Part shown: in pieces, positions 11,427 to 63,544 of the stretch
How the letters are laid out: every line of letters starts with the position of its first letter
Position numbering within the stretch: the stretch's first letter is position 1
Assembly (NCBI GenBank): GCA_900318645.1
Contig: ONLH01000013.1
Span: 1-63,544, forward strand
Direction: 5' to 3'
Origin: an uncultured Prevotellaceae bacterium
Lineage (GTDB): Bacteria; Bacteroidota; Bacteroidia; Bacteroidales; Muribaculaceae
DNA: 63,544 nt
Program-made: the position numbers and the translations under genes
Notes under the pieces: model-generated
What the model was told of the DNA's origin: nothing
What the model saw: only the letters and a program-made list of their open reading frames with translations
Database searches by the model: none

Positions 11427-11440
11427 ACGTTACTATCTAA

Positions 11441-12848: not shown

Positions 12849-12880
12849 ACACACAATTCGCCACAGTTGTGAATTTTGGA

Positions 12881-12888
12881 TAATTTTG
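12881..12888 (+). promoter_or_regulatory. -7 box for the YdcZ-like transporter
   Basis: TAATTTTG about 25 bp before the ATG at 12914. No clear -33 box at standard spacing. Confidence 0.4.
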
Positions 12889-12913
12889 TGGCCTAATTGA
12901 AAAGAATGACGAC

Positions 12914-46900: not shown

Positions 46901-47128
46901 CCGACGTTCATGCCGCGTTGATTGTAAATAGTAATTGAAAAGTATACCACCATAATAATCGAATATTATACCATGCGGATCAGTGGGTTTGCGCTATTTA
47001 AACAAGTCTTTTGCGATAATCTTTGTGCGGTATCAAAGTTTTCTGTAAATTCGCACCCAGACTCCATATCACGGAAGGGAAAGATCATCCGTGAAGAGAT
47101 TGTGAACATAATCAAAATGTAAAGATAT

Positions 47129-47722: not shown

Positions 47723-47765
47723 ATTCTTCTCCCACTAGACCAAACGACAACACACTTTTGCCAAA

Positions 47766-47806
47766 CAACAAGGACAACTATTTTTGATTTTAGTTGTCTT
47801 TTGTTG
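47766..47806 (+). terminator. Hairpin after the HD-domain gene
   Basis: CAACAA-GG-ACAACTA (47766-47780) pairs with TAGTTGTC-TT-TTGTTG (47791-47806). The inner 8-bp stem is followed by TTTTGTT, so an intrinsic terminator is likely; the stem can also extend as a longer interrupted hairpin. Confidence 0.6.
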
Positions 47807-47963
47807 ATTAATCATTGTATTATAATTATCTGAAAAACAATAAATTAATAAAATAACTATTTCGGAAACTTTAACCGAATTTAGCAGAAAAAATTCTTTT
47901 GTTCGCAGATATTTATTGACCTTTGCCGCCAATGGTTAATATCTATAATTGAACGAAAGGAAT

Positions 47964-48800
47964 ATGATTACCAATTTTGAAACCAACAAAGTTTATTTTG
48001 CCCAGGGATTAAGTTCACCAGTATTTGAGAATGCTGCTGATTCCCTTGTCTCTGCCTTTCATGACTCTCATGTTAATTGGGCCAAAATCCCGTCCACTCA
48101 TTCGCCACAACATATTTGGGTGCGTGACTATATGCCCGTACAGGTGAGTAGGAACAGGTTTATTCAGTTCCGCTATGAGCCAGATTACTTAATGGAAAGT
48201 CCTGAGTATAAGCCGGATGTTCATGGCCTTCTAAACCAACTCGGTATCGATGTCACCTGCTCTACCATTAATCTTGATGGTGGGAATATTATCAGTTGTG
48301 GTGATAAAGTAATAATGACAGATAAAATCTTCCAGGAGAACCGTCAGTATAGCCACAGCAGGCTAATAGAAGAACTGACTGAATTGTTGGATGCTGAGCC
48401 CGTTTTAATTCCCTGGGATATCTATGAAGAATACGGCCATGCCGACGGAATGGTGCGGTATGTGGGAGAGGGTAGGGTCCTGCTCAACAATTATTGTGAT
48501 TTTGACAAAGCTCTGCGCAAGAAACTGCTAGCCGCGCTCAGTCCTTATTTCAACGTCACAGAACTGCATTATGGCACTTTCTCCGACATGAGTTGGGCTT
48601 ACCTCAACTTTCTGCACGTGGGACATCAGATTTTTATCCCGATGACCGACGACAAACTTGGCGAGATAGCATTCAGACAAATCGCCGAGTCCTACCCCAA
48701 CTGCCATTGCCACCCAGTACAAAATTGCAAATCCATCGTCTCCGAAGGCGGCGCCCTAAACTGCTCCACCTGGAACACCCTTACCGAAATAGTTGTATAA
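47964..48800 (+). CDS. Agmatine deiminase/peptidylarginine deiminase-family protein
   Basis: A 278-residue protein of the PAD_porph/AgDI family. It has IWVRDYMPV (substrate carboxylate and guanidinium contacts), NLDGGNIISCGD, EYGHADGMVRYV with the His-x-Asp pair, and a C-terminal SEGGALNCSTWN carrying the catalytic Cys. Enzymes of this fold hydrolyse guanidino groups. At 278 residues it is shorter than typical agmatine deiminases (about 350), so the substrate may differ. ATG 47964 is preferred to TTG 47949. Confidence 0.82.
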   Translation: MITNFETNKVYFAQGLSSPVFENAADSLVSAFHDSHVNWAKIPSTHSPQHIWVRDYMPVQVSRNRFIQFRYEPDYLMESPEYKPDVHGLLNQLGIDVTCSTINLDGGNIISCGDKVIMTDKIFQENRQYSHSRLIEELTELLDAEPVLIPWDIYEEYGHADGMVRYVGEGRVLLNNYCDFDKALRKKLLAALSPYFNVTELHYGTFSDMSWAYLNFLHVGHQIFIPMTDDKLGEIAFRQIAESYPNCHCHPVQNCKSIVSEGGALNCSTWNTLTEIVV

Positions 48801-48818
48801 ATGTCGTAGAATAGGAGA

Positions 48819-48854
48819 CAAAAGGCTCGCACAAAAATGATACTTAGCCTTTTG
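48819..48854. terminator. Convergent-gene hairpin at the left border of the accessory island
   Basis: CAAAAGGCT (48819-48827) pairs with AGCCTTTTG (48846-48854). It lies between the deiminase-like gene (plus) and the unassigned gene at 48870 (minus) and can serve both. Confidence 0.6.
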
Positions 48855-48869
48855 CGTTTAATCTCATTA

Positions 48870-49646
48870 TCAGTTGAGTAAAAGATATTTATATCGTTCT
48901 TCGGTATTAAATATCCGAGCAACTTGATATCCCTGTTCCCATTCGATTCCCTTTAAATAGAATCTGTATTCTGCTTTCAGATAATCACAGAAGAAGTTGA
49001 AAAGATTATCATCTAGTTCTAGATAGTCGCCATCTTGAAATACGAGTTTTTTATATTCTTTCAATATGTTTTTGATTTTTGTTTCTACTTTACCCTTGAT
49101 GGCGTTCTGATACTTTTCTTTATCATTACAATCTTCCTTTAATTCTAATTCATTTTTAGAGATATTAAAAGTTATGTATCGTTGAGAAGAACAGACTTCT
49201 ATATCACAAAATTTAGTTGTTTCGATAAGCAGCGGAGTGAGGTTATGGTTAGAATCAAAAGCATCTAGAACATCAAAAAGTTCATTAACACATTTTTGTG
49301 GCCCACAAATTGTTTTTAAATAATTCCAGTCCCCGTCATATTTTCTTATACTTCTAATTAATATGCCTCCGAATTTGATTGGTTCACCTTTTTGATTGCT
49401 TTCAATGGTCAAATCAACACCGCTTTGATGAAAAAACCATTGTTTTTCTGAGCAAGATCTTGGATATGTTATGATGTCAGGATGGTTAGGCCCATAATAA
49501 TAAAACTCAATCTCAGCAATCTGATAATAGGCATCTTCTTTCTTAATACAATAGCGACCCATTAACATCTTGGCGCATTCCTCAAGAATGCTCTTATCCA
49601 GATGGTTGCCGTCTAGATATTGATAAAATTTTAAAATATCGTCCAT
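48870..49646 (-). CDS. Unassigned AT-rich gene
   Basis: A 258-residue soluble protein I cannot place. Near residue 45 it has IAEIEFYYYGPNHPDIITYP followed by WFFHQSGVDLTIE and a GGILIRSIRK segment. This reads like a compact enzyme core (Glu, His, Asp in a row of conserved-looking blocks), followed by a Lys/Glu-rich C-terminal half. It is markedly AT-rich compared with the chromosomal genes to its left, and is the first gene of the accessory island. I see no signal peptide or membrane segment. Confidence 0.6.
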   Translation of the reverse strand: MDDILKFYQYLDGNHLDKSILEECAKMLMGRYCIKKEDAYYQIAEIEFYYYGPNHPDIITYPRSCSEKQWFFHQSGVDLTIESNQKGEPIKFGGILIRSIRKYDGDWNYLKTICGPQKCVNELFDVLDAFDSNHNLTPLLIETTKFCDIEVCSSQRYITFNISKNELELKEDCNDKEKYQNAIKGKVETKIKNILKEYKKLVFQDGDYLELDDNLFNFFCDYLKAEYRFYLKGIEWEQGYQVARIFNTEERYKYLLLN

Positions 49647-49881
49647 AACTTTATTCTTTCACTTCCCGACGCAGAAGATGCGACCTATTGATTATCAGAT
49701 ATTTATATACTATACGGTACAAATATGGTAGAGTTTTGCAGTACCGCTTTCAAAGCCTTCACATTTAACACTTTTGACTAAGTTTAACCGAAAAACAATG
49801 GACTAATGTAAGAAGATGGTTTGCTCTTGTTGTTTGCAGCATCTTAGTTAATGCCTTTTTGCCCCCAAAACGCTATAAGAA

Positions 49882-50898
49882 TTATTTCCCACCATCGTCA
49901 CCACCATCGTCACCTTCGCCCTGTTCGAGCATGCCCCTGACGCGCTTATCAAAGTCTGAGTCAATGCGCTGCGTTCGGTTAAAGATGTCGTACTCGCGCT
50001 CAGCCTTGTCTTTTGCCTGCTTAGCGGACACGCTTCCCTTGTCTGGAAGTATCTCATATCGCCTAAAAGCGAGGAACTCGTTGACGCTGGCTGCGAACTG
50101 CTCCATGTTGAATGTGTTTTCACGTTCGATAAGGTCTTCGATGTAGTCGAAATAACCTGAGACTGCTCGCTCGAGCTGGCGAATCTCTTTCTCGGTCAGG
50201 TAGTTTTTTGCCACCGACACGTCAGACTTAAGGATGCGCCCATCGGGGGAGTTCTTCCATGTGGTCAAACCCATGTGCTCCTTAGCGTGGTCTGCCTTGG
50301 TGTAGATTATTTCGGCAGCCGTCTGCCCAGTGATGGCATAATGAAAGCGATTCTGAACCATGGCATAAAATTCTCGTGTTGTAGGCGAATTCCTGTCATA
50401 GTCGGTGCTGCACTCGGCATAGATGTCCGTTATTTGCTGCCAGATCCTGCGCTCGCTGGCGCGGATGGAACGCACCCTCTCCAGCAGTTCGCGGAAGTAG
50501 TCTTTGCCGAACACAGCGATTCCCTGTTTCAACCTATCGTCGTCAAGTACGAATCCCTTGCGGATATACTCGTTGAGTATCTTGGTGGCCCACTGGCGAA
50601 ATCTGGTCGCTCTAAGCGAGGACACGCGGTAGCCTACAGCGATAATGGCGTCAAGACTATAAAAGGCTACTGGCTTATCGGAATTTGCAATTTGCATTTT
50701 TTGCAAACTGCTTTTTTCATCCAGCTCACCACTATCAAAGATATTACTCAAATGACGGGAAATGCCGGAAGTATCTACCCCGAAGAGTTGTGACATCGCC
50801 TTCTGTGTGCACCAGATAGTGTCGTCCTTGATTACCACTTGGACTTTACCATCATCCTCGGGCAGGTTGTATAACAAAAACTGTATTTCGTTGCTCAT
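49882..50898 (-). CDS. RhuM-family protein
   Basis: A 338-residue protein. Its N-terminal half matches RhuM: IQFLLYNLPEDDGKVQVVIKD, CTQKAMSQLFGVDTSGISRHL, VAFYSLDAIIAVGYRVSSLRA, RFRQWATKILNEYIRKGF. The C-terminal half differs from the RhuM-Fic protein at 11441; it has no Fic motif and ends in an acidic Gly-Asp tail. RhuM proteins cluster with restriction systems and islands but lack a proven function. ATG 50898 is chosen because the promoter at 50941-50971 lies inside the longer frame. Confidence 0.85.
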   Translation of the reverse strand: MSNEIQFLLYNLPEDDGKVQVVIKDDTIWCTQKAMSQLFGVDTSGISRHLSNIFDSGELDEKSSLQKMQIANSDKPVAFYSLDAIIAVGYRVSSLRATRFRQWATKILNEYIRKGFVLDDDRLKQGIAVFGKDYFRELLERVRSIRASERRIWQQITDIYAECSTDYDRNSPTTREFYAMVQNRFHYAITGQTAAEIIYTKADHAKEHMGLTTWKNSPDGRILKSDVSVAKNYLTEKEIRQLERAVSGYFDYIEDLIERENTFNMEQFAASVNEFLAFRRYEILPDKGSVSAKQAKDKAEREYDIFNRTQRIDSDFDKRVRGMLEQGEGDDGGDDGGK

Positions 50899-50940
50899 GT
50901 CTCTGTGATATAATAGTTTTATTACGCTTCTTTCGTTGCA

Positions 50941-50971
50941 CAAATGTAACAATAAAATCCCAAATATCAAA
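50941..50971 (-). promoter_or_regulatory. Promoter of the RhuM gene
   Basis: On the minus strand, TTTG (50971-50968), a 19-bp spacer and TACATTTG (50948-50941), about 45 nt before ATG 50898. The tandem repeats at 50987 begin just upstream of it. Confidence 0.6.
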
Positions 50972-50986
50972 GGAAAAGTGCAGAAT

Positions 50987-51085
50987 TGCCGAAATCCTCA
51001 ATGGCTAAACACTGAAATATGCCGAATTTCTCAATAGTTGAGTGCCGAAAAATGCCGAAATTCTCAAAGATTGAATACTAGATTG
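50987..51085. repeat. Three 33-bp tandem repeats upstream of the RhuM promoter
   Basis: Units start with TGCCGAA at 50987, 51020 and 51053, exactly 33 bp apart. The first 15 bases (TGCCGAAATTCTCAA with one or two changes) are kept and the remainder drifts but still shows TTGA or CTAAACACTGA-like parts. There are no spacers and no cas genes. A 33-bp period equals about three helical turns, as in iteron or operator arrays. Confidence 0.75.
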
Positions 51086-51207
51086 TACCAAAATGTTTTA
51101 GTGGAAAACCTACGAAAATACGCAAATGTTTCAATTTCGTTTGGTCATTTGGCATTATGTGTTTGTAGCCATAGACTCCAACAATCCTTTGAGATAAGTA
51201 AAACACC

Positions 51208-51246
51208 TCGGGCGAAATCTATCCATTTTTGTTAGATTTCGCCCGA
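51208..51246. repeat. Long perfect inverted repeat
   Basis: TCGGGCGAAATCTA (51208-51221) and TAGATTTCGCCCGA (51233-51246): 14 bp, perfect, 11-base loop, flanked by AAAA on the right. It lies in the 386-bp space between RhuM and the GIY-YIG relic. With no T run in either reading direction it is not a clear terminator; an attachment or protein-binding site is possible. Confidence 0.65.
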
Positions 51247-51284
51247 AAAATGACGTAATCAGATAAGATTCTACTTGAAGTCGT

Positions 51285-51835
51285 TTATAATAGATCGCCA
51301 ATATGTTTTAGTCTGGCTATTCCATACAAGGCTTGGGTTTGTCCGTAGTATGCCAATACATCAGGGATGACATCAGGGACGCTACCACGAGATATTTTCT
51401 TAACCTCATCTTCATTTATTTTCCACCACTCATTGATAATGTAAACATTATTAATTGGAGGTTTTTTGTTAGTTCTATTTTCGAGATTCTTTTCACCAAT
51501 CGTAATTTTCGCCAATTCGCTAGTGATGATGTTTTCGCAGATTCGAACATCAGCTCTTTAGCCTTGACATTGGCGATAGTCCCTATCCATATTTGAAGAA
51601 TTACATTCTGCCTGTTTTCATAGTCATGAATGTGATGATCATGATTCTTCAAGCGTTTACCAACTGTTTGTCTGATAGTCATTCCACAATAATACTTATC
51701 ACTTTTGCCAGTTTGTTTAGCTTGAAAAACATATAAGTTGAATTTATCAGAACGAGTATCTTCCCATTTCTTCAGTTCTTCTTTGGAAAAGAATGGACCA
51801 TACCATTCTATAAGATATGTATCACTTTTTTGCAT
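51285..51835 (-). pseudogene. GIY-YIG nuclease-like gene with a one-base frameshift
   Basis: The first frame (from 51835) encodes LYVFQAKQTGKSDKYYCGMT, RQTVGKRLKNHDHHIHD and KAKELMFES, a GIY-YIG-like core preceded by a short N-terminal domain. At the AAAA run on the minus strand (51535-51532) the frame breaks. Adding one A restores a continuous frame to 51285 (NIITSELAKITIGEKN, then NNVYIINEWWKINEDEVKK) for a product of about 183 residues. Either the gene is inactivated, it uses slippage, or the assembly has a homopolymer error. Confidence 0.6.
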
Positions 51836-51991
51836 GATATTATCAAGAAAACTTGATTTATGGTTGTATAGATGAATCTTATTTGCCCCAAATTTTAATT
51901 GACGAATATATTAAGCATTGATAATCAATAACTTATACATTAAACGGTAGAGAGGTGGATTGAGGGTTGGACAATGTCAGAAATAAGGAGG

Positions 51992-51999
51992 CAAAATTA
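51992..51999 (-). promoter_or_regulatory. -7 box after the five-gene array
   Basis: Minus-strand TAATTTTG between the HEPN-like gene end (52036) and the GIY-YIG relic (51835), about 155 nt upstream of the latter. The rest of 51836-52035 is AT-rich with no gene I can support. Confidence 0.35.
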
Positions 52000-52035
52000 A
52001 CGTATTTAACCTTTGTTTTATTCAAATGCATAATA

Positions 52036-52701
52036 TTATTTCCCAAAAGCCTCCCCAATTTTCTTCAGCCCAGCTTCCATTAAAGGTCTCATCGTCTTCC
52101 CTAACTCCAATGTCACCTCTTCAAATCTATGCAGCCGGTCAATCGTGCCTGACCAACCAACACCTTCCAACACTTCCATTTGCTTCATGAAGTCATGTTC
52201 TCGATGTGCCCCTGCGTTATGCCGTATCTCAGAAAGCACAGGTTTCTCCTGTTTAAAGAAATCTGCCAGTTTCTTCCTGGCAATTCTGGTCTTGGCCAAC
52301 GCAGCCTGCGACAACAACCTTTGGGCTATATCTTGATACTTCTTTCCGGTAAGTTCATTCAAATCTTCACACCATTCATACATCATCACAGAAGCTTCAA
52401 CAGCATTTCTTTCCTTACTACTTTCATTCTTTTCAAAATATAGCAACTTCTGAATTCCTTTGGTCTCATAAGAACACTGCTGGATTTGCGCTGCAACATT
52501 CAGCACAAACTCCTGTTCCTCAAAGGCATGTTTTTGGGTCATAAGTTCATGAGTGTGCCACCCAACAGCAATTCTCTCACCAATCAATGCTAATTGTTGC
52601 TGGCAATGCCTTATCTGTACTTTATGTCCCCTCCGCTCCTTCTCAGGGTACTTATTAAACCACAAAGAGGTATGCGCTCCTAGCACATACCCCTTCAACA
52701 A
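52036..52701 (-). CDS. HEPN-like helical protein (array gene 5)
   Basis: A 221-residue, all-helical-looking protein. Near the C-terminus is SEIRHNAGAHREHDF, with Arg160 and His166. An R-(4 to 6)-H motif in an Asn/His-rich helix followed by acidic residues is the mark of HEPN RNases in defence and toxin systems. It is the last gene of the array, 9 bp after the PD-(D/E)XK gene. No ATG is in frame near the start; TTG 52701 or 52698 follows the preceding stop directly and is the best candidate. Role as an RNA-cleaving effector is inferred from motif and context. Confidence 0.55.
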   Translation of the reverse strand: MLKGYVLGAHTSLWFNKYPEKERRGHKVQIRHCQQQLALIGERIAVGWHTHELMTQKHAFEEQEFVLNVAAQIQQCSYETKGIQKLLYFEKNESSKERNAVEASVMMYEWCEDLNELTGKKYQDIAQRLLSQAALAKTRIARKKLADFFKQEKPVLSEIRHNAGAHREHDFMKQMEVLEGVGWSGTIDRLHRFEEVTLELGKTMRPLMEAGLKKIGEAFGK

Positions 52702-52710
52702 TCTTTATTC

Positions 52711-53322
52711 CTATATCACCAACCCCGAAAAATCCAACCACAAATGATACAATACAAAATCATATGGCGTACCGTGTCGGGATTCCAAATCCACCCTGGT
52801 GCTCATGGTTGAATTCGTTGTGACCAAATACTCTGTTTGTTCTAGATGGCTGTTTATCTGACTCATTGTAGCTGGCAAGTCAATGGTACAGACCACAAAT
52901 CCCAGCATGGCATTACATCCAAGCAACGACGGATACTTACCTTTCGTAAAACGCCTGATACCATTATCTACATACTCCTTGCTAAGATGACTCCTTCCAT
53001 CAAGTCGCTTGCACTCTATCGCAAAGAATGCATCTTGATGTTTATAACAGTTGGGGGATAGAAATTGCATATCAATACGACCAGCCGTCAATTGCAACCA
53101 CACTTCAGAACCATAATGGTAATCCTTTGCTGTGGTTGTAGTCATCTTATAAGCCTGGTCAAAGAAATACTTACCAAAAGCATCCCGAATCTTGTTTTCG
53201 TCGTCTGGCAAATGCTGTTCACTCTGACATATAAGGGCATACACACCACAAATATCATTCAACAAACCTTGTAGTTGCAAACGATAATATACTTTTCTAT
53301 ATTCAAACACCGATGCATCCAT
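52711..53322 (-). CDS. Small PD-(D/E)XK nuclease-like protein (array gene 4)
   Basis: A 203-residue protein starting MDASVFEYRKVYY. It has GRIDMQFLSPN (Asp84) followed by an AFFAIECKRLDG strand with Glu103 and Lys105. This D-(18)-E-x-K spacing, with the hydrophobic strands around it, is the core of PD-(D/E)XK restriction nucleases. An upstream Glu (DENKIRDAFGKYF) could complete the site. ATG 53322 lies 5 bp after the methyltransferase stop, so the two are translationally linked. It is the best candidate for the DNA-cutting subunit of the array. Confidence 0.7.
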   Translation of the reverse strand: MDASVFEYRKVYYRLQLQGLLNDICGVYALICQSEQHLPDDENKIRDAFGKYFFDQAYKMTTTTAKDYHYGSEVWLQLTAGRIDMQFLSPNCYKHQDAFFAIECKRLDGRSHLSKEYVDNGIRRFTKGKYPSLLGCNAMLGFVVCTIDLPATMSQINSHLEQTEYLVTTNSTMSTRVDLESRHGTPYDFVLYHLWLDFSGLVI

Positions 53323-53327
53323 TCCCG

Positions 53328-56315
53328 TTACCTTTCTGTTTTCGTTAATAATGCATCTACAAACTCCTGAACATCCACGTATGCCATGGCAGGATGCCAC
53401 AGTCGTTGCTCACAAGGTTTGATGATATAGAAACCGTTTTTCTCAAAACCGCGTATATCTTTACGAAGATACAATTGGTCTGTCACCCTCTCGGTCGACA
53501 ATGCCAACAGAAATGCTTCCAGTGTACTGTAAGAGCCTTGTTTACAGTCAAATGCCTTTTTCTCTTTTGCAAGGTTAAAACGCATCAGAACATGAGAAGA
53601 GCCTATCTCACAACTACAATTCAAGTACATTCCTTCACCAAATTGTCCTTCGAATCTATTCAGAAAAACACAAGCATACGCTTCCATCAGTTTCTTTCCT
53701 GTCCTGTCATTCTTCACAGGCTTTGTGTCGACATTGCCGGTGGCTATCGGAATTGAATAGTTATTGGCATAGTCAATAAGCAATTGTTCTACCTGAGACA
53801 AACCCAACTGACTGGCTATGCTATCTTCAATTTGGTCTTTTTCTCGTTCAATTTGCCTAGCAAATACATCTGGATTCTGAAGAGAGCCTTCCTCAAGTCT
53901 ACTATATTTCTTCTCAATTCGTTCAACAATCTTATGAATATCACCACTCATATATGGCAGTGAGAACTTCTCCATATTGTGTCCCTGCTCTCGTTCAATT
54001 CCCAATGAACTGAAGCACATCATGGCATAATATGTAAAGAAACGGGAATTTAACGTTCCTGCAATATTCCTCAACACCTCAATACTATCACCATGAACTC
54101 CGGTAATAGCATCTTTATACACAGCGTCCTCTGTGCAGACTGCCGCTCTACATGAAAAGTCTGACGCATCCAAACTCTTCCTTATCAGCAACAAGGGTGC
54201 CTCAAACAATTGCTTACGTCGTCCCCATTGGGCAGAAGCTAGCTCCCATCGTTCATCCGATGGACTTACAACATATTGATGCAGTTGGTCAGCCTCTATT
54301 TTTTTCTTACCAACATAATCACTGATGTTGTAATGCCTATTCCCTTCTTTTCCGCAAGTAACACCAAGTCCACATTCAAAGCCATGTTCATTTAACTTCT
54401 CCTTGATGGTTTTCTTCTCTTTAAGTCGTTTCACAAAAAGGAAATCCAGATAAGAACCATAAAGTAATATCTTCCATAGATAATCATACTGGCTGAGCAA
54501 TTCTTGGCGTACATACTGTATATCCGCCTTCTCCACTGTCAGTACCTTGAAAAGTGAGAAAAAAACACTGGGCTTGACTGAAGTATGCTTCACAAGATGC
54601 CCATTATCAATATCCCCCATTCGCTTTCTCTGATAGAACATCACACAAGCCGGGGCAATCGAAGGATCACTGGACTGTGAGAAAACTTCACGTCTTACCG
54701 ACGACAATTCCAGTACTGCATTCAACTGAACATTTTCCCAAAAATAACTGCGGAAGTGACTGCTCTGGTTGTTATAGAGTACTTTACTCGTCAGCACAAA
54801 GGCCGTTTTGGTTTCAGCACCCATGAAGTCAAGAGCCCTCACCATGAAAGCCTGAGCAATTTCTTTGTTTCCAATAATGCTACGTCTTCTCTCTGCACGG
54901 GCACGTATTTCGATATACTTTTGGTATTCCGGCTTGATTTCCACACCCGCTTCGTCATATTCCTTACGTCCTCTGTTCCAAGGTGGGTTGCCTATGATAT
55001 AGTCAAACTTCACGTCTTCAAATCCTACTGGACAGAACGCATCTTGGCAAAGCAGATTCGATTCAAGAAGATTCGGAAACCTGAACGTAGAGACATCCGC
55101 GGGTTTTTGGTAATCCAACAACGTAAGATAGATGGAAAATGCTGCCACTTGCACGGCACTTTGGTCACTGTCTATGCCAAAAATATTATTAAGTGCCAGT
55201 TCTCGCAACTTCTCCTGGAATCTCGTTCCCTGCAAATCCTCTTTTTTAGCATGGGCGATGTAATGATTTATAATACGACGAAGTGTTTCAACCAAGAAGA
55301 TACCCGACCCACATGCTGGGTCCAACACCCTACATCCGCTCTCTGTTGTCGTCTTTAGATAACGGGCTACAGTGTTCTCTACAACGTATTCGGCAAGGAA
55401 CAAGGGGGTATAGTATGCGCCCTCCTTTTCCTGATTCTCTTTTCCAATAAAACGCTCATACACATTACTGATGAACTCAACGGGAAGAATAGAGAAATCA
55501 TATATATCAAACAAAGCCTGTGAGCCATCTTCCAAATCGTCGCTTCTTAGCAGTCTGATAAGAACATTCAGGGCCGCATCAGGTATAGTTACCAGTTCTT
55601 CTCTCGAAATCTTAAACAAGTCACCATGAAAGCCCTTTTCCTTGTCTTGCAGAGTCTCAAACAAATCAGACAGCCTATTCTTGTCTTGCAGAAGTTCTAT
55701 AAGGTCATCGTTGGTTAACGCCTTTTTTACTCCCTCAAACCTCAGCACGATATGCCGGTCTGTCAGATAGCGCAAAAAAATCATCTTACCTATCAGACGG
55801 TTTGCCAGGTTACGCGAAACTCCTATTTTTTGAATACGCAGCTGAGCGAATTCTATATTTTTCAGCAAATAATAGTCTACCCTGTTGTGATAAGCCAAGC
55901 GGGTGCGGTATTCCTCCCAACTTTTACCGGTAACCAGTTTAAAGTATGTGAACTGATCAAGAACCTTCTCATTACCTATCAACTGGAGGGTTTTCAGTTC
56001 CTTTTCATATTTGAAGCCATTGAATACATCAACATGGGTATCATTCACCAATATCACAATTGGCACTTCATTCAAGTTCCATATAGCTTTGAATAAGGCC
56101 GTAGTATCTTGGGGGCGCTCAAAGAAAAAAAGCAAGGGCCTGCCGCCTATTGCAAACAAGGCTGACATCTCGTGAAGGGGGCTTGATACATCTTGGATAA
56201 GCGAAAAAATTCTTGGTGACAACTGAACCTTGTTGGGCCAGTTTGCATCATCAAGGGTAACAAAGCCATCCTTAGACAAAAAGTCTAATTTCCGATATAG
56301 CTCTTCGATACTCAT
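53328..56315 (-). CDS. Large N6-adenine DNA methyltransferase, type IIG/PglX-like (array gene 3)
   Basis: A 995-residue protein. Residues 1-310 form an N-terminal domain (HEMSALFAIGGRPLLFFFER, VILVNDTHVDVFNGFKYE) placed where type IIG enzymes have their nuclease, but without a D...ExK motif I can see. The methyltransferase core has the SAM site DPACGSG (332-338) and the catalytic NPPW (443-446). The C-terminal half resembles the target-recognition part of type IIG/BREX-PglX-like proteins. It should methylate adenine at a specific sequence. It has its own promoter in a 161-bp gap, unlike the other array genes. Confidence 0.85.
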   Translation of the reverse strand: MSIEELYRKLDFLSKDGFVTLDDANWPNKVQLSPRIFSLIQDVSSPLHEMSALFAIGGRPLLFFFERPQDTTALFKAIWNLNEVPIVILVNDTHVDVFNGFKYEKELKTLQLIGNEKVLDQFTYFKLVTGKSWEEYRTRLAYHNRVDYYLLKNIEFAQLRIQKIGVSRNLANRLIGKMIFLRYLTDRHIVLRFEGVKKALTNDDLIELLQDKNRLSDLFETLQDKEKGFHGDLFKISREELVTIPDAALNVLIRLLRSDDLEDGSQALFDIYDFSILPVEFISNVYERFIGKENQEKEGAYYTPLFLAEYVVENTVARYLKTTTESGCRVLDPACGSGIFLVETLRRIINHYIAHAKKEDLQGTRFQEKLRELALNNIFGIDSDQSAVQVAAFSIYLTLLDYQKPADVSTFRFPNLLESNLLCQDAFCPVGFEDVKFDYIIGNPPWNRGRKEYDEAGVEIKPEYQKYIEIRARAERRRSIIGNKEIAQAFMVRALDFMGAETKTAFVLTSKVLYNNQSSHFRSYFWENVQLNAVLELSSVRREVFSQSSDPSIAPACVMFYQRKRMGDIDNGHLVKHTSVKPSVFFSLFKVLTVEKADIQYVRQELLSQYDYLWKILLYGSYLDFLFVKRLKEKKTIKEKLNEHGFECGLGVTCGKEGNRHYNISDYVGKKKIEADQLHQYVVSPSDERWELASAQWGRRKQLFEAPLLLIRKSLDASDFSCRAAVCTEDAVYKDAITGVHGDSIEVLRNIAGTLNSRFFTYYAMMCFSSLGIEREQGHNMEKFSLPYMSGDIHKIVERIEKKYSRLEEGSLQNPDVFARQIEREKDQIEDSIASQLGLSQVEQLLIDYANNYSIPIATGNVDTKPVKNDRTGKKLMEAYACVFLNRFEGQFGEGMYLNCSCEIGSSHVLMRFNLAKEKKAFDCKQGSYSTLEAFLLALSTERVTDQLYLRKDIRGFEKNGFYIIKPCEQRLWHPAMAYVDVQEFVDALLTKTER

Positions 56316-56360
56316 AAGTCTTGACTCAAAATATTCCAGCTATTGTTTCTATCCATCCTG

Positions 56361-56388
56361 CAAATATAACAATTTCTCCCCAATCAAA
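56361..56388 (-). promoter_or_regulatory. Internal promoter for the array methyltransferase
   Basis: Minus-strand TATATTTG (56368-56361), with TTTG (56388-56385) 16 bp further upstream. It lies in the only large gap inside the five-gene array, about 45 nt before ATG 56315. The array's first promoter (61066-61093) has the same 16-bp spacing. Confidence 0.55.
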
Positions 56389-56476
56389 TTGCATTTCTTT
56401 GAAATAATTATTCTTTTTTAACCAAAGGCCTTTCCTACCCTTTTCGTCAGGCACTCTTGTCCCTTTTTCCTCTATG

Positions 56477-58159
56477 CTATTGATGTGGCAAATCAATGCC
56501 TATCCGCATAGCATTGCTGAACACATTGTTGATAATCCTATAAGTGTATGCCTCCTTTTGCGTCCCAATGAAAGTGGCAGTAAAATCTCCATCTATATAA
56601 TGGAACGTAAAACTCCTATCACCATCTGCAAGTGGCAGTTTTGTATCAGCTATATAAATTGTAAAGAATCGTTTTGACCATTTAACTACTTTTTGGTCTG
56701 GGAAATATGAATAATGATCTTTCTCTGCACTACCTATACCCTCAGCCGCATCAACCAACTCTCCTAAAACAAAAGCCAAATTTTGATTTACCTTCTCTGG
56801 CCGCAGTGCATCGCACGTTTGCGTAATACACAAGATATACGGATAATTCAACTCCTTATCGCCATCCTTTCCTGTAATACCCCTGTCCAGTTCGAAAACA
56901 TCGCCTGTCTTTATTTGATGAAAAGGGGCTTTTATGGCTGTCTTAGGGATAAACGTCAGCATGGAATTAAACTCCAATATTTGCGCATTTTCGTATTCCT
57001 GTATTTTCTCTCTTGCACCTAAAGTCATCAAATCCACAAATGAGAAATCCATTTCCCCTTCATGGAATGAATGTAAAACTTGCTCCGTCAAAGCTGAAAC
57101 AACAAAATTGCTCACATTCTCTTCTGGGATGCCAGCCTCTTCAAGCGACCTGCAATGTTTTAACAGAGCTTCTTCACTGATTTTCCCAAGGGCTTTCCCA
57201 ACGGATGCGAGATTGCTACCTACTACCTGTTTCAAAAGGAGGGAAAGCAACAGAGAGCGATGTCTGGGTATATCTGTCACAGCATTTACCAAGTCAGTAA
57301 AAAGTCCATCGGGATTAATCGTATTCTTAGATGTCACATGAACCACCGTTCCATTCACAAGAACTGTAGTTGGATTCACAGCCTTTGCCATCAAACCAGA
57401 TGCTGAGACCTTTTCAGATTCACATAAAAAACATATGCAATAGGCTCGAATAAAGGCAAGCGTATCTTTAAACTGATTCTTATTAGCTTGTAGCAAAGGT
57501 CTGAACTTCATACACATATCTTTCTTGACATTTCCTTCACCTTTAGCCTCGGAGTATGTTCTCGCTATTTGATCTATGAAATTCTTCTGAATCTCCTCAC
57601 GCCTTGACGGATTCATAATAAAATCCCCTAACACATCTTTGGCAACACCTTGTACAGTAGCAGCATCAAAGCCGTCCATCTCATAACTGTCAAATAGTTC
57701 TGCCATCGGTCCTGTAATTGCATCCACATGAGGCTGCAATTCGTCACGTAACTGCAACTTGAAATAGCTATAAATTGTATGTGCTATTCCACTTAAGTTT
57801 TCAGCCTGAGTATAAATATCCACAAAATGGATCTGGTCGTTCTGGCAAACATCGTCAAGTACTGCTAACGCTGCTTCATATTTAGGTGCAGCATTGCTTA
57901 ACTCCCAGTCCAGAATTACCAAGTCCCGATTGCGGAGCAACTTCTCCTTATCACGCTGATAATCTGCCATATTAGTGAACGTATAGATATCAAGATGGCA
58001 CTTCCCGCTATCACGGAATGACTCATAGAGTTGTTTTGAGTCTGCATAATTGGCATCACCTGCGTTTCCTGAATATGCAGCTACATACTCATTATCTATA
58101 CAGACTGCCGAGTTAATAGTCTCTCTTATCAGTTTTTGTTGTACCTCCGGTGTTAACAT
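56477..58159 (-). CDS. Receiver-domain protein with unknown C-terminal domain (array gene 2)
   Basis: A 560-residue protein. The first ~125 residues resemble a response-regulator receiver: an early acidic CIDNEY, the phosphoacceptor-like Asp84 in DLVILDWELS, and a later VDIYTQ strand with Thr. Residues 130-420 are helical and unassigned. The last ~140 (FVLGELVDAAEG, WSKRFFTIYIADTK, YRIINNVFSNAMRIGIDL) form a beta-rich domain I do not recognise. No DNA-binding HTH is obvious, so this is not a standard transcriptional response regulator. It lies 12 bp after the ATPase/kinase-like gene, implying a sensor-receiver pair. Confidence 0.7.
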   Translation of the reverse strand: MLTPEVQQKLIRETINSAVCIDNEYVAAYSGNAGDANYADSKQLYESFRDSGKCHLDIYTFTNMADYQRDKEKLLRNRDLVILDWELSNAAPKYEAALAVLDDVCQNDQIHFVDIYTQAENLSGIAHTIYSYFKLQLRDELQPHVDAITGPMAELFDSYEMDGFDAATVQGVAKDVLGDFIMNPSRREEIQKNFIDQIARTYSEAKGEGNVKKDMCMKFRPLLQANKNQFKDTLAFIRAYCICFLCESEKVSASGLMAKAVNPTTVLVNGTVVHVTSKNTINPDGLFTDLVNAVTDIPRHRSLLLSLLLKQVVGSNLASVGKALGKISEEALLKHCRSLEEAGIPEENVSNFVVSALTEQVLHSFHEGEMDFSFVDLMTLGAREKIQEYENAQILEFNSMLTFIPKTAIKAPFHQIKTGDVFELDRGITGKDGDKELNYPYILCITQTCDALRPEKVNQNLAFVLGELVDAAEGIGSAEKDHYSYFPDQKVVKWSKRFFTIYIADTKLPLADGDRSFTFHYIDGDFTATFIGTQKEAYTYRIINNVFSNAMRIGIDLPHQ

Positions 58160-58171
58160 GTGTATGCAGCG

Positions 58172-61045
58172 TTATTCGTTTTTAGCAATGACAAAGCAAG
58201 CGCCACCAAGTTTGTTATGCTCAGTGGCATTCGATGCGAAAATACGATAGCCTACGGCAGCCAGACTGTGAAGAGCCAAATATAGTCCAATACCTCTTCC
58301 GTCCTTTCTACGGGTGAAGAATATCGTAAATATCCTACTAAGATCCTGGTCTGATATAGGCACACCGTTATTCATAATGAGAATAAGTCCGTTATCCGGC
58401 CTATATTCGAATCGTATTTTACGGTTCTGTACAGGTATCAGCCAATAAAGAGCATTGTTCACAATGTTGATAAACACTGAGAGAACTTCCGACTCAAATG
58501 TAAAGAACTCGTAATTATCGAAATCTTCATTTGAAGTGATTTCGACGTCAAGTTCCTTTATTTTTTTATCAAAGAATGTTTCTATTTTATCCTTGATATA
58601 AGCTCCTGTGAATACCGTTCGCTGTCTGCGACGACTGCGGTAGAGAGGCCGAAGCATCTTATAGTTCTGCTCCATATGTTCAAACGCATTACGCAATTGC
58701 CTATAGGTGTCCCAAACCTCATCATGCTGTTTGGCATACTGCTGCAACAGATTAAGCGATGTTGACATCTGAGAGTATAGCACGTTGAACTCATGGTCGA
58801 TGATTTCTACCGAAATACCCAACTGTGCAAGCATAGCTGTCTGCTCCAGTTTCTCATCCACCATGGCCTTCTGCTCCTTGTACCATGCCATTAGCACATC
58901 GTCGTTCACATCCAGCGAAAGCGTTTCAAGATGGTTAACAAAGGGGCGTAACCTTTCGTCTATTTCATCCTTGATGGATTCTTCTGTCTGAATAACCTGA
59001 GCTATTGCCTGTCTATAGTCTTCTGCTGTAACAGGCGAAAATATACCCTCACTTACTAGGCCTTTATATTTTTCTATAAAGGAGCGTTGTTCTTCGTCAA
59101 ACAATCCACTTACCCTATTGCTAAAGTTGGCAACACCTTTTCTGAAGCTACTGATGGCTTTACCAATATTAGCTACAGCTATTAGCTGACGATTTTGGAA
59201 TTCATTCCGCAAGTCACTCACATCAAAACGCTTACGAACGTCATCCATCTGCAACGTACACTCACTAACCATGGCAGAAGTCTGATTGTAAGTATTCAGG
59301 TATTCATTATAGATACCGGCCTGTCGTTCTGTCAGGTTAATACGTTGCGACTTCCGAACCTGTAATCGTCTGAGTTGCGAACGCTTTATGTCGAGTTCTT
59401 CACCCAACTGCTTATATCGGTCGTATGATAGCTCTATCTCCACTGCTGCCTGTGCCATCCTGCGTTGCAAATCTTCCACTTCGGTTTGCAACTTTTGTAT
59501 TTCCGGCCCATTGTTCTTCAGTTCGTCCATAAACGCCTTGCGTGCCTGCTGTACATTCCGTTTTTCAGCATCGGCCATTTTCTCATTACGCTTACGAATC
59601 TCTTCCTGCTGCTCTGAACGGGCATTATCAGAATCCTTGTCAGGTGTTGCAAAGTAAGTCTTAGCCAAGTCGATGAAGAGTTCTATCAAGTCGCGCTTAA
59701 ACTCCCTATAAGCTTTGTTTTCTATCAAACCCTCTCGACCAGCCTTATCCGTCAGGTTCCTATTCGCATCACGGGTAATACCCAGATAGCCAAACATCTT
59801 GTTATATCGGAAGAAATATTCACCCATACGCTTGGCTCGACGTTCCTCAAATTTCAAGAAGTCAAAATCCACGCGTCCGTATGGCAGTACACGAAACTTA
59901 TCCCTGTAGATATACAGACCACCAAAACGCGAAGTCTTTCCATCCATCACTGCGTATGCATCAGGCGAAAGCATCGAGTTGCCCTGCTGGCCTTCTATCA
60001 CACCCAGTTCCATATTGAATGGGCCGTACGGTGTCTTTCCTGGCAGTCGAACAGGACGGAAAGAGTATTCGTATGTCTTTCTATATACTCTCACCGTACC
60101 TTCAAAGAAACCATTTTCATCAAATGAACCCTTAATGTAGTGGTCTGCTTCCTCAAAATCCTTCTTGTCAAAGAAATCATTGATAATATTATAGACCCCA
60201 TTGACATCCCTTACATTAAACGACGTTGTAAAGTCGGGTGTGTAAGCGAAGATATTAAACAGCGCACCCAGCGATCGACGTATCTCCCAGATAGAATCAC
60301 TCTCCTCTGTCGTATTATATTGAGCTAATTCTAACAATTGTTCATGGGGTTTAAACACAATAAACGTAGTACCATGAGCATCAGCATCCTGATAGCGAGA
60401 TACTATCTCGTCTCTTATAGCTTGAGGTATATTTAACCTCATTACGTCTTCCATGATGTTCTTTGCCAGTTCAGCCTGCTCCTGCCAAGCTTCTGTATTA
60501 TCGAGATTACTCAGCAATTCCTCCTTCATTCGAGAGAATTCACCATCCGAGATCCCCTCTTGGCCAAATTCCGTCATGGGGATGTCGACGTCATCTACAA
60601 AGAGATTATAGTTCTCCAATATACGCCAATCAAAGAATAGCGCTTGACAAGCCATCCCTCTCTTCTTTGTGAGCATCAGCATAGGCGAACCAAGATACGA
60701 CACTGAGAGTCGACCAATTCCCTTTTCGCCCATTGGTATTCGTTGTTCCAGCCCAAACCGTTCCTCTGTCGTCAGGAAGTTCATGCCCCGGGCTTTCGAG
60801 TCGGTACCCAGCACAATCCATTTCTCCAGGATGTCCTTTTTAGACATTCCAGTTCCTGTATCCGAAAGCACAAATACTGGGCTATGAATGTCCTTGTAGC
60901 CATTCATATACAGGTCGCAGGACAACGAATCAGCGTATGCGTCATAGCCATTCTTCCATAACTCAGAAATGGCTGTTGGCAAATCAGCTATCTGCCCCTT
61001 ACCCAACAGTTCTACTGCACGTGCTTTGGTTCTAAATTGTGCCAT
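58172..61045 (-). CDS. Dual-GHKL ATPase: MutL/Hsp90-like N-terminus, coiled coil, histidine-kinase-like C-terminus (array gene 1)
   Basis: A 957-residue protein. The N-terminal GHKL ATPase has its N box in AISELWKNGYDAYAD (Glu28, Asn32, Asp35), G1 in SDTGTGM (61-67), and G2 in GEKGIG (106-111), the MutL/MORC/Hsp90 pattern. A coiled coil spans about 480-640. The C-terminus begins with IIDHEFNVLYSQM (His751, a HisKA-like His box). It then has an N box in IVNNALYWL, a variant G1 IMNNGVPIS (Asn where Asp is normal) and G2 GRGIGLYLA. It lacks membrane helices, so it senses something in the cytoplasm. It is first in the array, behind its own promoter. Confidence 0.85.
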   Translation of the reverse strand: MAQFRTKARAVELLGKGQIADLPTAISELWKNGYDAYADSLSCDLYMNGYKDIHSPVFVLSDTGTGMSKKDILEKWIVLGTDSKARGMNFLTTEERFGLEQRIPMGEKGIGRLSVSYLGSPMLMLTKKRGMACQALFFDWRILENYNLFVDDVDIPMTEFGQEGISDGEFSRMKEELLSNLDNTEAWQEQAELAKNIMEDVMRLNIPQAIRDEIVSRYQDADAHGTTFIVFKPHEQLLELAQYNTTEESDSIWEIRRSLGALFNIFAYTPDFTTSFNVRDVNGVYNIINDFFDKKDFEEADHYIKGSFDENGFFEGTVRVYRKTYEYSFRPVRLPGKTPYGPFNMELGVIEGQQGNSMLSPDAYAVMDGKTSRFGGLYIYRDKFRVLPYGRVDFDFLKFEERRAKRMGEYFFRYNKMFGYLGITRDANRNLTDKAGREGLIENKAYREFKRDLIELFIDLAKTYFATPDKDSDNARSEQQEEIRKRNEKMADAEKRNVQQARKAFMDELKNNGPEIQKLQTEVEDLQRRMAQAAVEIELSYDRYKQLGEELDIKRSQLRRLQVRKSQRINLTERQAGIYNEYLNTYNQTSAMVSECTLQMDDVRKRFDVSDLRNEFQNRQLIAVANIGKAISSFRKGVANFSNRVSGLFDEEQRSFIEKYKGLVSEGIFSPVTAEDYRQAIAQVIQTEESIKDEIDERLRPFVNHLETLSLDVNDDVLMAWYKEQKAMVDEKLEQTAMLAQLGISVEIIDHEFNVLYSQMSTSLNLLQQYAKQHDEVWDTYRQLRNAFEHMEQNYKMLRPLYRSRRRQRTVFTGAYIKDKIETFFDKKIKELDVEITSNEDFDNYEFFTFESEVLSVFINIVNNALYWLIPVQNRKIRFEYRPDNGLILIMNNGVPISDQDLSRIFTIFFTRRKDGRGIGLYLALHSLAAVGYRIFASNATEHNKLGGACFVIAKNE

Positions 61046-61065
61046 ATCTTACTTAATTTAACTTG

Positions 61066-61093
61066 CAAAGATAACGATTTTTTGCCATTCAAA
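61066..61093 (-). promoter_or_regulatory. Promoter of the five-gene array
   Basis: Minus-strand TATCTTTG (61073-61066), TTTG (61093-61090) 16 bp upstream, about 20 nt before ATG 61045. Confidence 0.55.
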
Positions 61094-61767
61094 TTTCAAT
61101 CATTACATTTTTTTATATTTCTTTACAATATTGTCCTAAATAATTTTTGCGGAAAAACACAAAGGAGGTTGAACAGAAAGTAGAAAAATACTACTTTCGT
61201 AGTGACTGATGCCTATATGGTTTTTTATGTTTTATAACTCATTGTTTTCGCGAGACGATTGTATCTATATGTAGCGGCACTGAAATACAAATGGTTACGA
61301 TTTGCTATTGGTATAAAGAGTTGTAGCGAATGTGTCGCCTTATGTAGCATAGTGTAGTATAATTGTTAAAAGAATGTATTGAATGAGTACTGGATAAGAG
61401 ATGGGGGCAATTACCCTTCTCGTGTTACTTGGTCTTGCTATAGACGATGAATTAACTACTTATCTGCCAAAAAACATGTTATTGTGGGCTATTAATCATT
61501 GCGCCAGCAGAGTGCTGCCGTGCCGTTTTAGGACGTGAATCATAGAATAGCTGGATAGCTCAAAACTACCATTAGTAACTAAGTTGCAAATGAAACTAAA
61601 ACCTCCAGAGAAAAACAGCAAACGTCGAAAACGCAATACTTTGGCAGCCTCATATGCGCCATCACGCAGCATAATTGAACGCTACATCTATCTGTTATGG
61701 CGGTCAATTAGTTACAAACACGTTATCCATTTTCATTGGTGACAGCATAAGGAAGCCAAGTCCAAGG
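61094..61767. other. Long intergenic stretch at the right border of the island
   Basis: About 670 bp without a supported gene. It is AT-rich on the left and becomes mixed on the right. I found no tRNA, attachment-site duplication or transposase remnant. A 50-codon open frame (61590-61742) encodes a Lys/Arg-rich peptide without family features. A short GTAG...CTAC inverted repeat lies near 61180. Confidence 0.5.
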
Positions 61768-63544
61768 CTATTTCTTGCTATGATCGTTATGATGTGGGCT
61801 GTCATGCTCATCATCATTTGTCAGCACCCAGTCAAACTTCTTCACCCACCTCCAAACGGTGACGCGCGAGAGGTCCGTCATGCTCTGTATCTGTGGGTTG
61901 GACAGGCCAATGCGCATGAGGTAGCACACCTGCATCTTCTGCGTTGTCAAGCCGCGTCCCAGTTCAGCCGACACCCTGCCATGGAACTTCGGGTATAACT
62001 GATCAACAGCCTGGTATAGCTGCTTCCAGTCCGCTGGGCTCATGTCTTTCCTGCCGGTGGAAGATTGTTTGATGGCATAAACGACGTCTTCTGCTTTGCC
62101 TTCCAGTTCTGACTGATGCAGCAGCTTAATGTAAGTCCTGTTTTGTTCCATCTTCTCTGACAACTGCCGTTCTTTTTCTTTCAAAGCCTCTTCGTATTCT
62201 GACAGTTCAGCATTGACCTGTTGGAGTTCGCTTTTCACGTTGCTGAGTTCATCTGATGTCCTCTCTAATGATTTCCTAGATTTCTCAAGGTCTTTTTCCC
62301 TCAGTTCAATGTCCTTGCGGAGCTGCTTCCCATCATCTGACATTTGTTGCAATTCCGCCGAAAGTGACAACACTTCTTGCAGATGCTTATTACGTCTTCT
62401 GATATAAAGAATATAAGCGACACTAGCCAGCAATATTACCGCCAATGCGAAAACAACGAGAGTATTCTTGTACTTCTCTTTCTCATCTTTCAGCTTTTGC
62501 TCCTTCTTTTGATCCAAATGATACTGGAACTCATTATTAACTGTCGCAGCTAACTCTTGACGTTTCCCGAAGTCCAACGAATCGCTTAGTTCCAAATAGA
62601 CCGCAGCATACCGACTAGCATTACCTAGGTCCCCTTGTCTGTGATAGATCCGAAATAGTAGCTTTGACGCGTCATATATATTATAGATGTCAGATCCGTT
62701 GTCCAACAGGAGTTTCGCGTACACAATAGCGGAATCTGATTTGTTGCACAAATTATAGTATTGGGCAAAAGCCATACAAGAGAAATCAGAGAAATCTTTT
62801 ATTGGATCTATTTCAATCATGGAAAAACACTTTCTTGCTTTTGAATATTGCTCCAAAACGGCATAGTCATTTAGAAGATATAAAAGTGCATTCTGATACT
62901 TTGAAATATCTTTTGAACGTATTATCTCACCCAAAGCCGCGTCAAAAGCATTACCTGCCTGCTGTTGGTTGTCTTGCGCAAGATATGCCGTCCCAAGGTG
63001 CAGATATGGAAGGGTAACGTCTTTTTTCATCATTTTAGATATCTCAAGTTCTCCTTGGGCCATCTTAATGGCATCATCATAATTCTGAACTTTATAATAG
63101 AGGTCATTCAAATTTGAGTACGCATTACACATCATAATTGAATCGCAATCTCTTTCATTATTGTGCGCATATTCCAGAGACTTGAGGAAATATTCCAATG
63201 CCCTTGGAGCGTCTTGCAAATCACGATATGTACTTCCAGCGTAGTAGGACACTTCTTGTTTCTCAAGCATAGTTCCATTGTCCTCAAAATAGTTTATCAG
63301 TTTCTTGATCATCAAGTCTGAATTCGGTATGTGGAATGCCTTATCATTCAGCCTAATTCGCAATAAATCAAACTTATGCTTGACATAATCACTCTTATCT
63401 CGGATCTCAATTTCCAGGGAGTCAAGCATGACAAGAGCCTTATCCGGGTTCTCGTCACCAATCGTTTCAATGGTCTCAATATCTTCTAAAGTGCGTTTGT
63501 CAGAGCATGAAAATAATAAGCTCAAGACAATTACGCTCAGAATT
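61768..63544 (-). CDS. TPR-membrane-coiled-coil-HTH regulator (partial, start beyond window)
   Basis: At least 592 residues, 5' end cut by the window. The visible N-terminus is a lipoprotein or signal sequence (ILSVIVLSLLFSCSD). TPR-like helical repeats follow to about residue 320 (YAGSTYRDLQDAPRALEYFL, YLHLGTAYLAQDNQQQAGNA), then one membrane helix (NTLVVFALAVILLASVAYIL). A long cytoplasmic coiled coil and a C-terminal helix-turn-helix (GLTTQKMQVCYLMRIGLSN, then SDLSRVTVWRWV-like MTDLSRVTVWRWV) complete it. This architecture is common in Bacteroidales one-component membrane regulators. Target unknown. Confidence 0.8.
   Translation of the reverse strand, partial: ILSVIVLSLLFSCSDKRTLEDIETIETIGDENPDKALVMLDSLEIEIRDKSDYVKHKFDLLRIRLNDKAFHIPNSDLMIKKLINYFEDNGTMLEKQEVSYYAGSTYRDLQDAPRALEYFLKSLEYAHNNERDCDSIMMCNAYSNLNDLYYKVQNYDDAIKMAQGELEISKMMKKDVTLPYLHLGTAYLAQDNQQQAGNAFDAALGEIIRSKDISKYQNALLYLLNDYAVLEQYSKARKCFSMIEIDPIKDFSDFSCMAFAQYYNLCNKSDSAIVYAKLLLDNGSDIYNIYDASKLLFRIYHRQGDLGNASRYAAVYLELSDSLDFGKRQELAATVNNEFQYHLDQKKEQKLKDEKEKYKNTLVVFALAVILLASVAYILYIRRRNKHLQEVLSLSAELQQMSDDGKQLRKDIELREKDLEKSRKSLERTSDELSNVKSELQQVNAELSEYEEALKEKERQLSEKMEQNRTYIKLLHQSELEGKAEDVVYAIKQSSTGRKDMSPADWKQLYQAVDQLYPKFHGRVSAELGRGLTTQKMQVCYLMRIGLSNPQIQSMTDLSRVTVWRWVKKFDWVLTNDDEHDSPHHNDHSKK

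Follow-up and report, generated by a model that had tools for sequence, protein, structure and literature searches.

Do the five same-strand genes at positions 52036-61045 of contig ONLH01000013.1, from an uncultured Prevotellaceae bacterium, constitute one defence system, or did genes of separate origin come to lie side by side? A preliminary description of this DNA had read them as a single array in which a sensor ATPase, a receiver protein, a methylase, a DNA nuclease and a HEPN RNase act jointly. Here, the window means the whole 63,544-nucleotide stretch that was analysed, and the genes are numbered 1 to 5 in reading order. The analysis indicates that genes 1-5 look like a composite, namely two known kinds of module side by side plus a truncated leftover, and not a new five-gene system; genes 1-4 most likely represent an acquired segment in which a signalling pair, having exchanged its usual methylase partner, lies beside an ordinary split restriction-modification (R-M) pair. 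The five genes are as follows:

58172..61045, minus strand: gene 1, 957 residues, with an N-terminal GHKL/paraMORC-like ATPase domain, HEF_HK and a C-terminal HATPase_c (from Pfam, alignment and tree)
56477..58159, minus strand: gene 2, 560 residues, with a Response_reg_2 receiver and a C-terminal domain (from Pfam, alignment and model)
53328..56315, minus strand: gene 3, 995 residues, predicted N6-adenine DNA methylase (from Pfam and PADLOC)
52711..53322, minus strand: gene 4, 203 residues, predicted PD-(D/E)XK nuclease (from an alignment of 16 members)
52036..52701, minus strand: gene 5 as called, 221 residues from a TTG start, 5′-truncated HEPN-like remnant with R160-x5-H166 (from comparison with relatives)

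The open reading frame (ORF) coordinates confirm the order and spacing first described, with all five ORFs on the minus strand and gaps of 12, 161, 5 and 9 bp between them. The mechanical ORF of gene 4 extends back to 53400; its start is most probably the ATG at 53322, which gives the 203 residues and the 5-bp gap, and which the numbering of D84, E103 and K105 fits.

Gene 5 is no part of the array; it is what remains, truncated, of another locus. Its called start is a TTG in sequence that does not resemble the DNA of its relatives, only its residues 27-221 are common to them, and its first 26 residues are unrelated to the native N-terminus. The common part lies in this feature:

51903..52624, minus strand: segment shared, in whole or part, with four other genomes at 95-99% DNA identity, holding gene 5 residues 27-221 plus 133 bp (from DNA comparison)

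In the same-genus genome G405 (locus L112), DNA 95.8% identical over these 722 bp contains a copy of gene 5, separated by 6 bp from the preceding reverse transcriptase (RT_III-A, 2.3e-154), which is itself preceded by PRTase_III-A (3.3e-121) and, further upstream, by LmuA- and LmuB-like genes, with genes 1-4 absent within 20 kb. Three more genomes, G941 (L113), G967 (L114) and G232 (L051, another family), carry parts of the segment at 95-99% identity on contigs that begin there, and whole-genome DNA searches of all four genomes returned no match to genes 1-4 (one search scored four candidates per genome). The junction falls at 52624/52625, with its upstream side visible only in G405. Upstream of it L112 and L113 agree and the window differs, therefore the native N-terminus of gene 5 has been lost in the window. 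The copy in L112 contains an in-frame stop, and that in L113 diverges after residue 167.

A HEPN origin of gene 5 is plausible. The residues R160 and H166, which had been pointed out at the start, are indeed present in the R160-x5-H166 spacing and are conserved in one distant relative, and only the distant relative at L052 matches HEPN_AbiU2, at E 0.015 (15.2 bits, below the cut-off of 26.8). Gene 5 itself has no Pfam match at E up to 0.1 and a weak PADLOC match to PDC-M63A (E 0.039), PDB sequence searches with it gave nothing credible, and the model that AlphaFold2 made from its single sequence (predicted local distance difference test score, pLDDT, 42.9) was not used. A gene 5 profile run on 148 genomes of the phylum found nothing beyond the window except two weak matches (E ~0.002). 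No relatives appeared in IMG/VR scans with gene 5 or the L112 reverse transcriptase, nor in plasmid tblastn searches with gene 5 (limit 1e-3), the L052 gene (0.01) or the L112 PRTase (1e-10); the PRTase was found in 2 of 61 genomes of the genus.

These results bear directly on the five-gene reading. What speaks for it is the row of same-strand ORFs with short gaps, together with the retained R160-x5-H166 and the weak HEPN_AbiU2 similarity of the L052 relative; what it has to face is a fifth gene that has no native 5′ end, stands behind other genes in G405 and exists there as a copy with a stop, and a complete set that occurs in no other surveyed locus. A DNA-and-RNA-cleaving system of five genes is contradicted by the locus survey and by the junction at 52624, and we consider it very improbable. 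With the gene truncated and its G405 copy placed behind a class III-A operon of the defence-associated reverse transcriptase (DRT) type, the proposed RNA-cleavage arm has lost its basis. The claim that the five genes make one array is likewise not confirmed, gene 5 being foreign by its start and junction, and genes 1 and 3 each having a promoter-like site. From the original interpretation there remain a phosphorelay-like pair in an R-M setting and a methylase with a nuclease.

The latter two, genes 3 and 4, are well supported, by family membership and linkage, as a putative split type II-like R-M pair. Gene 3 matches the Pfam families N6_Mtase (PF02384, 2.1e-20) and Eco57I (PF07669, 1.5e-16), carries the DPACGSG and NPPW motifs that had been noted at the start, with most motif columns invariant in 13 aligned proteins, and is matched over nearly its whole length by PADLOC REase_MTase_IIG (E 3.3e-224). 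No conserved D...ExK triad precedes the methylase domain in these 13 proteins (the L090 copy starts later). Gene 3 as a single-chain type IIG enzyme was therefore rejected, as its N-terminal region is without the nuclease triad. In gene 4, the previously noted D84, E103 and K105 are invariant in all 16 aligned members. Because this triad is invariant and the gene 3 N-terminus has no conserved D...ExK, gene 4 is most simply the nuclease. The gene 4 protein of the window has no Pfam, NCBIfam or PADLOC match at E up to 0.1, PDDEXK_9 is weakly matched by 2 of the 16 members (best E 0.012), and PDB sequence searches with gene 4 gave nothing credible.

Linkage of the two genes was followed in 15 other loci: L011 and L012 came from a scan of genome contigs with gene 4, 12 further ones from a gene 4 profile run on 393 genomes, and L090 is the one viewed of two Agrobacterium plasmid hits. 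In every one an N6 methylase lies directly upstream of gene 4, the two ORFs overlapping or standing no more than 13 bp apart; it was identified as a gene 3 homologue by BLAST in 14 loci and by annotation and alignment in L090, with only the 3′ part of gene 3 on the contig in L044 and L045 and a copy interrupted by undetermined bases in L039. Identity to the window is ~64% for gene 3 and ~60% for gene 4 in L011 and L012, and the gene 4 relatives belong to Bacteroidales genomes and an Agrobacterium plasmid. A strict search with gene 3 (1e-60) in 149 genomes of the family, which does not count weaker homologues, found the window alone; plasmid tblastn with gene 3 (limit 1e-50) and an IMG/VR scan with the gene 4 profile found none.

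Genes 1, 2 and 5 were seen in none of these 15 loci, as judged from the annotation for L090 and from BLAST for the other 14; 9 of the 12 stretches from the order span only 4-12 kb, so that absence from them carries little weight. The absence of genes 1-2 there counts in favour of a different reading, that genes 3-4 are a self-sufficient R-M system and genes 1-2 an orphan pair, or one working with a C5-cytosine methylase elsewhere, so that two independent modules merely neighbour each other in a defence island. We regard this as a substantial possibility, to be weighed below. In L090, an ordinary HAMP kinase/response regulator pair lies some 4 kb upstream of the gene 3-4 pair.

Two further neighbours of this R-M core were observed. 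Downstream of the pair, L011 (3810-6892) and L012 (10699-13784) carry a GmrSD_N (DUF262) protein and a RecF/SMC-like ATPase (assigned by Pfam in L011), an accessory pair of another kind joined to the shared core. A RhuM-family protein (PADLOC PDC-S05) lies at 49882-50970 of the window (minus strand), ~1.7 kb downstream of gene 4, and L040 (4377-5387) and L050 (7996-8889) have a protein of the same family, with ~43% identity, less than 0.5 kb from their genes 3-4.

Genes 1 and 2, judged by conserved residues and by published linkage, look like a His-Asp phosphorelay pair. A cytoplasmic two-component-like pair of HEF_HK and Response_reg_2 proteins (PF19191/PF19192), linked to R-M, was published in 2021 (Bellieny-Rabelo et al., PMC8011034), so neither the pair nor its R-M linkage is new; group 1 of that study consists of HATPase_c_3 + HEF_HK + HATPase_c proteins. 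All three domains are matched above their cut-offs in gene 1, HATPase_c_3 at residues 24-145, HEF_HK at 741-806 (1.2e-23) and HATPase_c at 854-953, and NCBIfam returned solely kinase matches, all far under their cut-offs. Across eight aligned proteins the predicted phosphoacceptor H751 of HEF_HK is invariant, as are E28, N32, D35, D62, G64, G66 and G106 to G111 of the N-terminal GHKL domain and N860, N864, G916-R-G and G920 of the C-terminal one, in agreement with the GHKL boxes first seen at both ends. The C-terminal G1 box has Asn (N892), at a position that is usually Asp, in all eight proteins, and this is therefore a family trait. Gene 2 matches Response_reg_2 (2e-22, 80.6 bits against a cut-off of 27) and has the receiver residues D22, D84 and T117. 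Its D84, proposed from the outset as receiver-like, is invariant together with D22, C444, C449, D450, R552 and G554 in an alignment of 7 and again in one of 12, W85 being invariant only in the former. A predicted model of gene 2 has pLDDT 54.9 overall and ~80 or more over residues 61-130, and its beta-3 strand ends at D84.

The usual partner of this signalling pair is a C5-cytosine methylase, which adjoins genes 1-2 in all 35 other loci examined. Searches with PF19192 matched 10 of 393 genomes of the order and 17 of 395 genomes of the phylum, 9 over the cut-off in each case with the window included, and the methylase stands beside the pair in the 8 + 8 other over-cut-off loci (among them L019, incomplete at a contig edge and lacking gene 1). 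It does so too in 3 of 3 plasmid loci, in 13 of 13 gene 1-type IMG/VR loci (L071-L083, with L074 and L075 near copies and L082 partial) and, by annotation, in the three E. coli loci viewed out of 212 records with a DNA match, two of which carry the same protein. Pfam confirmed a C5 methylase in 33 of the 33 proteins scanned, from the first 32 loci and L086. Left out of the count were L021 (below cut-off, without gene 1), nine below-cut-off rows from 8 genomes in the phylum search, whose flanks were not fetched, and the gene 1 relatives L084, L085 and L086, which have no HEF_HK hit; of these, L085 runs out at a contig edge. An IMG/VR scan with gene 1 alone gave no relatives, the 13 loci having come from another IMG/VR search, and phage records gave one partial match to gene 1.

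Maximum-likelihood analysis of 30 gene 1 proteins, taken from 29 other loci and the window, places the window protein within a supported set of seven (100/99). The other six rows of this set all have a C5 methylase, therefore the adenine-methylase neighbour looks derived. A text search for the H-E/Q/D-F motif found none in 8 of the 30 proteins and an off-place match in one (L072), and HEF_HK membership of the rows failing it rests on overall homology to gene 1. No C5 methylase was found beside genes 1-2 among the window ORFs, and the genome has one Response_reg_2 match. The surveyed loci outside the window, many of them short stretches, nowhere join genes 1-2 with genes 3-4 or with gene 5, an outcome that the preliminary description had itself named as refuting it. 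Thus the locus is an unusual pairing of known parts, with an adenine R-M neighbour in place of the usual C5 methylase.

In the published survey, R-M genes near the pair were far commoner than in shuffled genomes, the Fig. 5 legend lists N6/N4 methylases among the nearby genes as well, and no functional test of the pair was reported (PMC8011034); among open-licence PMC papers no later functional study of it was found, the one other paper listed as naming these families being on biosynthetic gene clusters. The figure legend of the DefensePredictor paper names HATPase and REC in predicted systems without validated defence domains, which from the legend cannot be matched to the HEF_HK family (PMC13092281), and the portion consulted of a BREX survey holds nothing on the pair (PMC12839542).

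Among the loci left out of the count, L084 (IMG/VR, 8538-13579) contains an N6 methylase, then a dual-GHKL protein without a HEF_HK hit, a short ORF that is receiver-like by eye and unmatched in Pfam, and an HNH nuclease; this order may be analogous to that in the window. In L086 (IMG/VR, 8782-13239) a C5 methylase is accompanied by a dual-GHKL protein that likewise lacks a HEF_HK hit and by a short protein matching Response_reg below threshold; these may represent a second type of sensor/receiver set linked to a methylase.

How did the two pairs come together? Across the TPR-protein gene upstream of gene 1 the window is homologous to genome G929 (L118), a homology that ends at 61260, and in L118 this TPR-protein gene is adjoined by an operon similar to the DRT III-A operon of L112 (RT 65%, PRTase 73%). 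Because of this limit and the gene 5 junction at 52624/52625, genes 1-4 may be delimited as an acquired segment, its two ends deriving from comparison with two different genomes:

52625..61259, minus strand: putative acquired segment, exactly genes 1-4 (from the end of L118 homology and the gene 5 junction)
61066..61093, minus strand: Bacteroidetes-type promoter-like site TTTG-N16-TATCTTTG, 20 bp before gene 1
56361..56388, minus strand: promoter-like site TTTG-N16-TATATTTG, 45 bp before gene 3, within the 161-bp gap

An empty site for the segment was not seen. Genes 1-4 have a G+C of 0.40-0.44, lower than the 0.49 of the window; the DNA directly flanking them is just as low (0.42-0.43), so base composition does not show where the segment ends. 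Repeats in 49400-62000 are only short and chance-like, with none at the limits. Both promoter-like sites match the Bacteroidetes −33/−7 consensus with a 16-base spacer. The pattern occurs 12 times in the window, where 1.23 occurrences would be expected from shuffling; a spacer of 16 was admitted after the sites had been seen by eye, the first range having missed both, and therefore the excess supports the pattern generally more than these two sites. Because genes 1 and 3 each have such a site, at least two transcription units are suggested. A sigma-70 promoter and terminator scan was uninformative, and Rfam gave no match at the gathering score in 47000-63544.

From the observed anatomy, key residues, linkage patterns and gene 5 junction, we infer a scheme of enzymatic activities, sensed signal, relay and coupling as follows. 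Gene 3 would methylate adenine at its target, and gene 4, as a separate PD-(D/E)XK nuclease, would cut unmethylated DNA. The N-terminal MORC-like ATPase of gene 1 probably senses DNA or nucleotide state, upon which the C-terminal kinase domain would autophosphorylate H751, the phosphate would pass to D84 of gene 2, and the gene 2 C-terminal domain would deliver the output. The pair, usually found beside a C5 methylase, would here have been brought to the adenine R-M pair, probably to monitor or gate it. A composite of this kind, with the relay pair placed next to the adenine R-M pair and probably monitoring or gating it, is the reading that we prefer and hold to be somewhat probable; the action of the relay on genes 3-4 is its most interesting and least supported step.

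Several observations weigh against this reading. The Pfam match of gene 2 ends at position 147 of the 180 of the Response_reg_2 model, and a beta-5 Lys is not recognisable, as the alignment reads, in the gene 2 sub-clade of seven, therefore a standard receiver switch in gene 2 is not assured; its receiver also has N23 where relatives have D or E, and Foldseek with its model returned nothing at E < 0.001. The gene 1-2 pair and the gene 3-4 pair each have a promoter-like site of their own. The only PF00145 (C5 methylase) matches of the genome lie on contigs C39 and C44, therefore genes 1-2 could serve one of these methylases in trans. No second locus with genes 1-4 together was found in the surveyed loci, therefore the coupling of the two pairs rests on one neighbourhood. 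The separate promoter-like sites, the C5 methylases on C39 and C44, the constant C5 neighbour of the pair elsewhere (32 of the 35 confirmed by Pfam) and the absence of genes 1-2 from the other gene 3-4 loci are all as expected of independent modules; less expected of them are four genes on one strand within one segment, both of whose proposed limits fall outside the genes, and the published excess of R-M genes near the pair over shuffled genomes. Chance neighbourhood is thus nearly as likely as the relay-coupled reading. A bolder proposal, which we consider possible and rather doubtful, is that HEF_HK / Response_reg_2 is a portable phosphorelay, able to serve R-M systems of differing chemistry, that here left its C5 methylase and gates the adenine pair, giving restriction in which a histidine-aspartate relay switches the cutting.

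The surroundings of the segment contribute further observations. The TPR regulatory gene (window 61768-63525, minus strand; counterpart in L118 at 3-1487) borders the island, and in G929 it borders a DRT III-A-like locus with TIR and NACHT-type genes; the site beside it is likely a defence hotspot. On the other side, three intergenic stretches of ~120-150 bp (49659-49790, 50941-51092 and 51133-51250) recur at ~80-90% in other genomes of the genus, some of them several times per contig, and the one at 49659-49790 has no unusual RNA folding. A small conserved ORF (51416-51835, minus strand; L115 5521-6069; 75% identity over 93 residues) reads as GIY-YIG-like by eye, with no Pfam match above cut-off in either copy.

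As the pair stands here without its usual C5 methylase and beside a self-contained adenine R-M system, the control of restriction can be asked with four separable genes. The locus is also a warning for neighbourhood-based discovery, namely that an acquired segment lying against an old gene fragment in a defence hotspot can pass for one multi-gene system.

Among known systems, Detocs employs a two-component relay in defence and MZA a GHKL protein, and the window resembles the former in its putative relay and the latter in its GHKL domains; PADLOC gave no matches for genes 1, 2 and 4, the presence of Detocs in the version used not having been checked. The link to DRT class III-A systems (RT_III-A/PRTase_III-A) is the position of the gene 5 copy in L112, whereas no reverse transcriptase is among the window proteins scanned, and in L118 of G929, whose operon is called DRT III-A-like from its similarity to L112, the reverse transcriptase is not followed by gene 5; gene 5 as a regular DRT III-A component is not supported. 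With type IIG enzymes the window shares a gene 3 that matches over its length and an abutting nuclease gene, but the nuclease is a separate small protein without a family match and the gene 3 N-terminus has no conserved triad. In VcSduA, as far as the text consulted goes, a GHKL ATPase is fused to a PD-(D/E)XK nuclease and residues of both domains are needed for anti-phage activity (PMC12137116), so ATPase-gated nucleases are plausible in general, although this architecture differs from that of the window. ParaMORC GHKL ATPases occur in R-M operons according to the sections consulted (Iyer 2008, PMC2292703), where, like in the window, an N-terminal GHKL ATPase stands beside methylases and nucleases; the window differs from these by its C-terminally fused HEF_HK + HATPase_c kinase core and the receiver protein alongside. 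Likeness in domain content is found with the HEF_HK / Response_reg_2 pair itself, as the window shares both families side by side, the group 1 architecture and the R-M neighbours, and departs from the C5-methylase loci in having an N6 methylase and a PD-(D/E)XK nuclease as neighbours of the pair.

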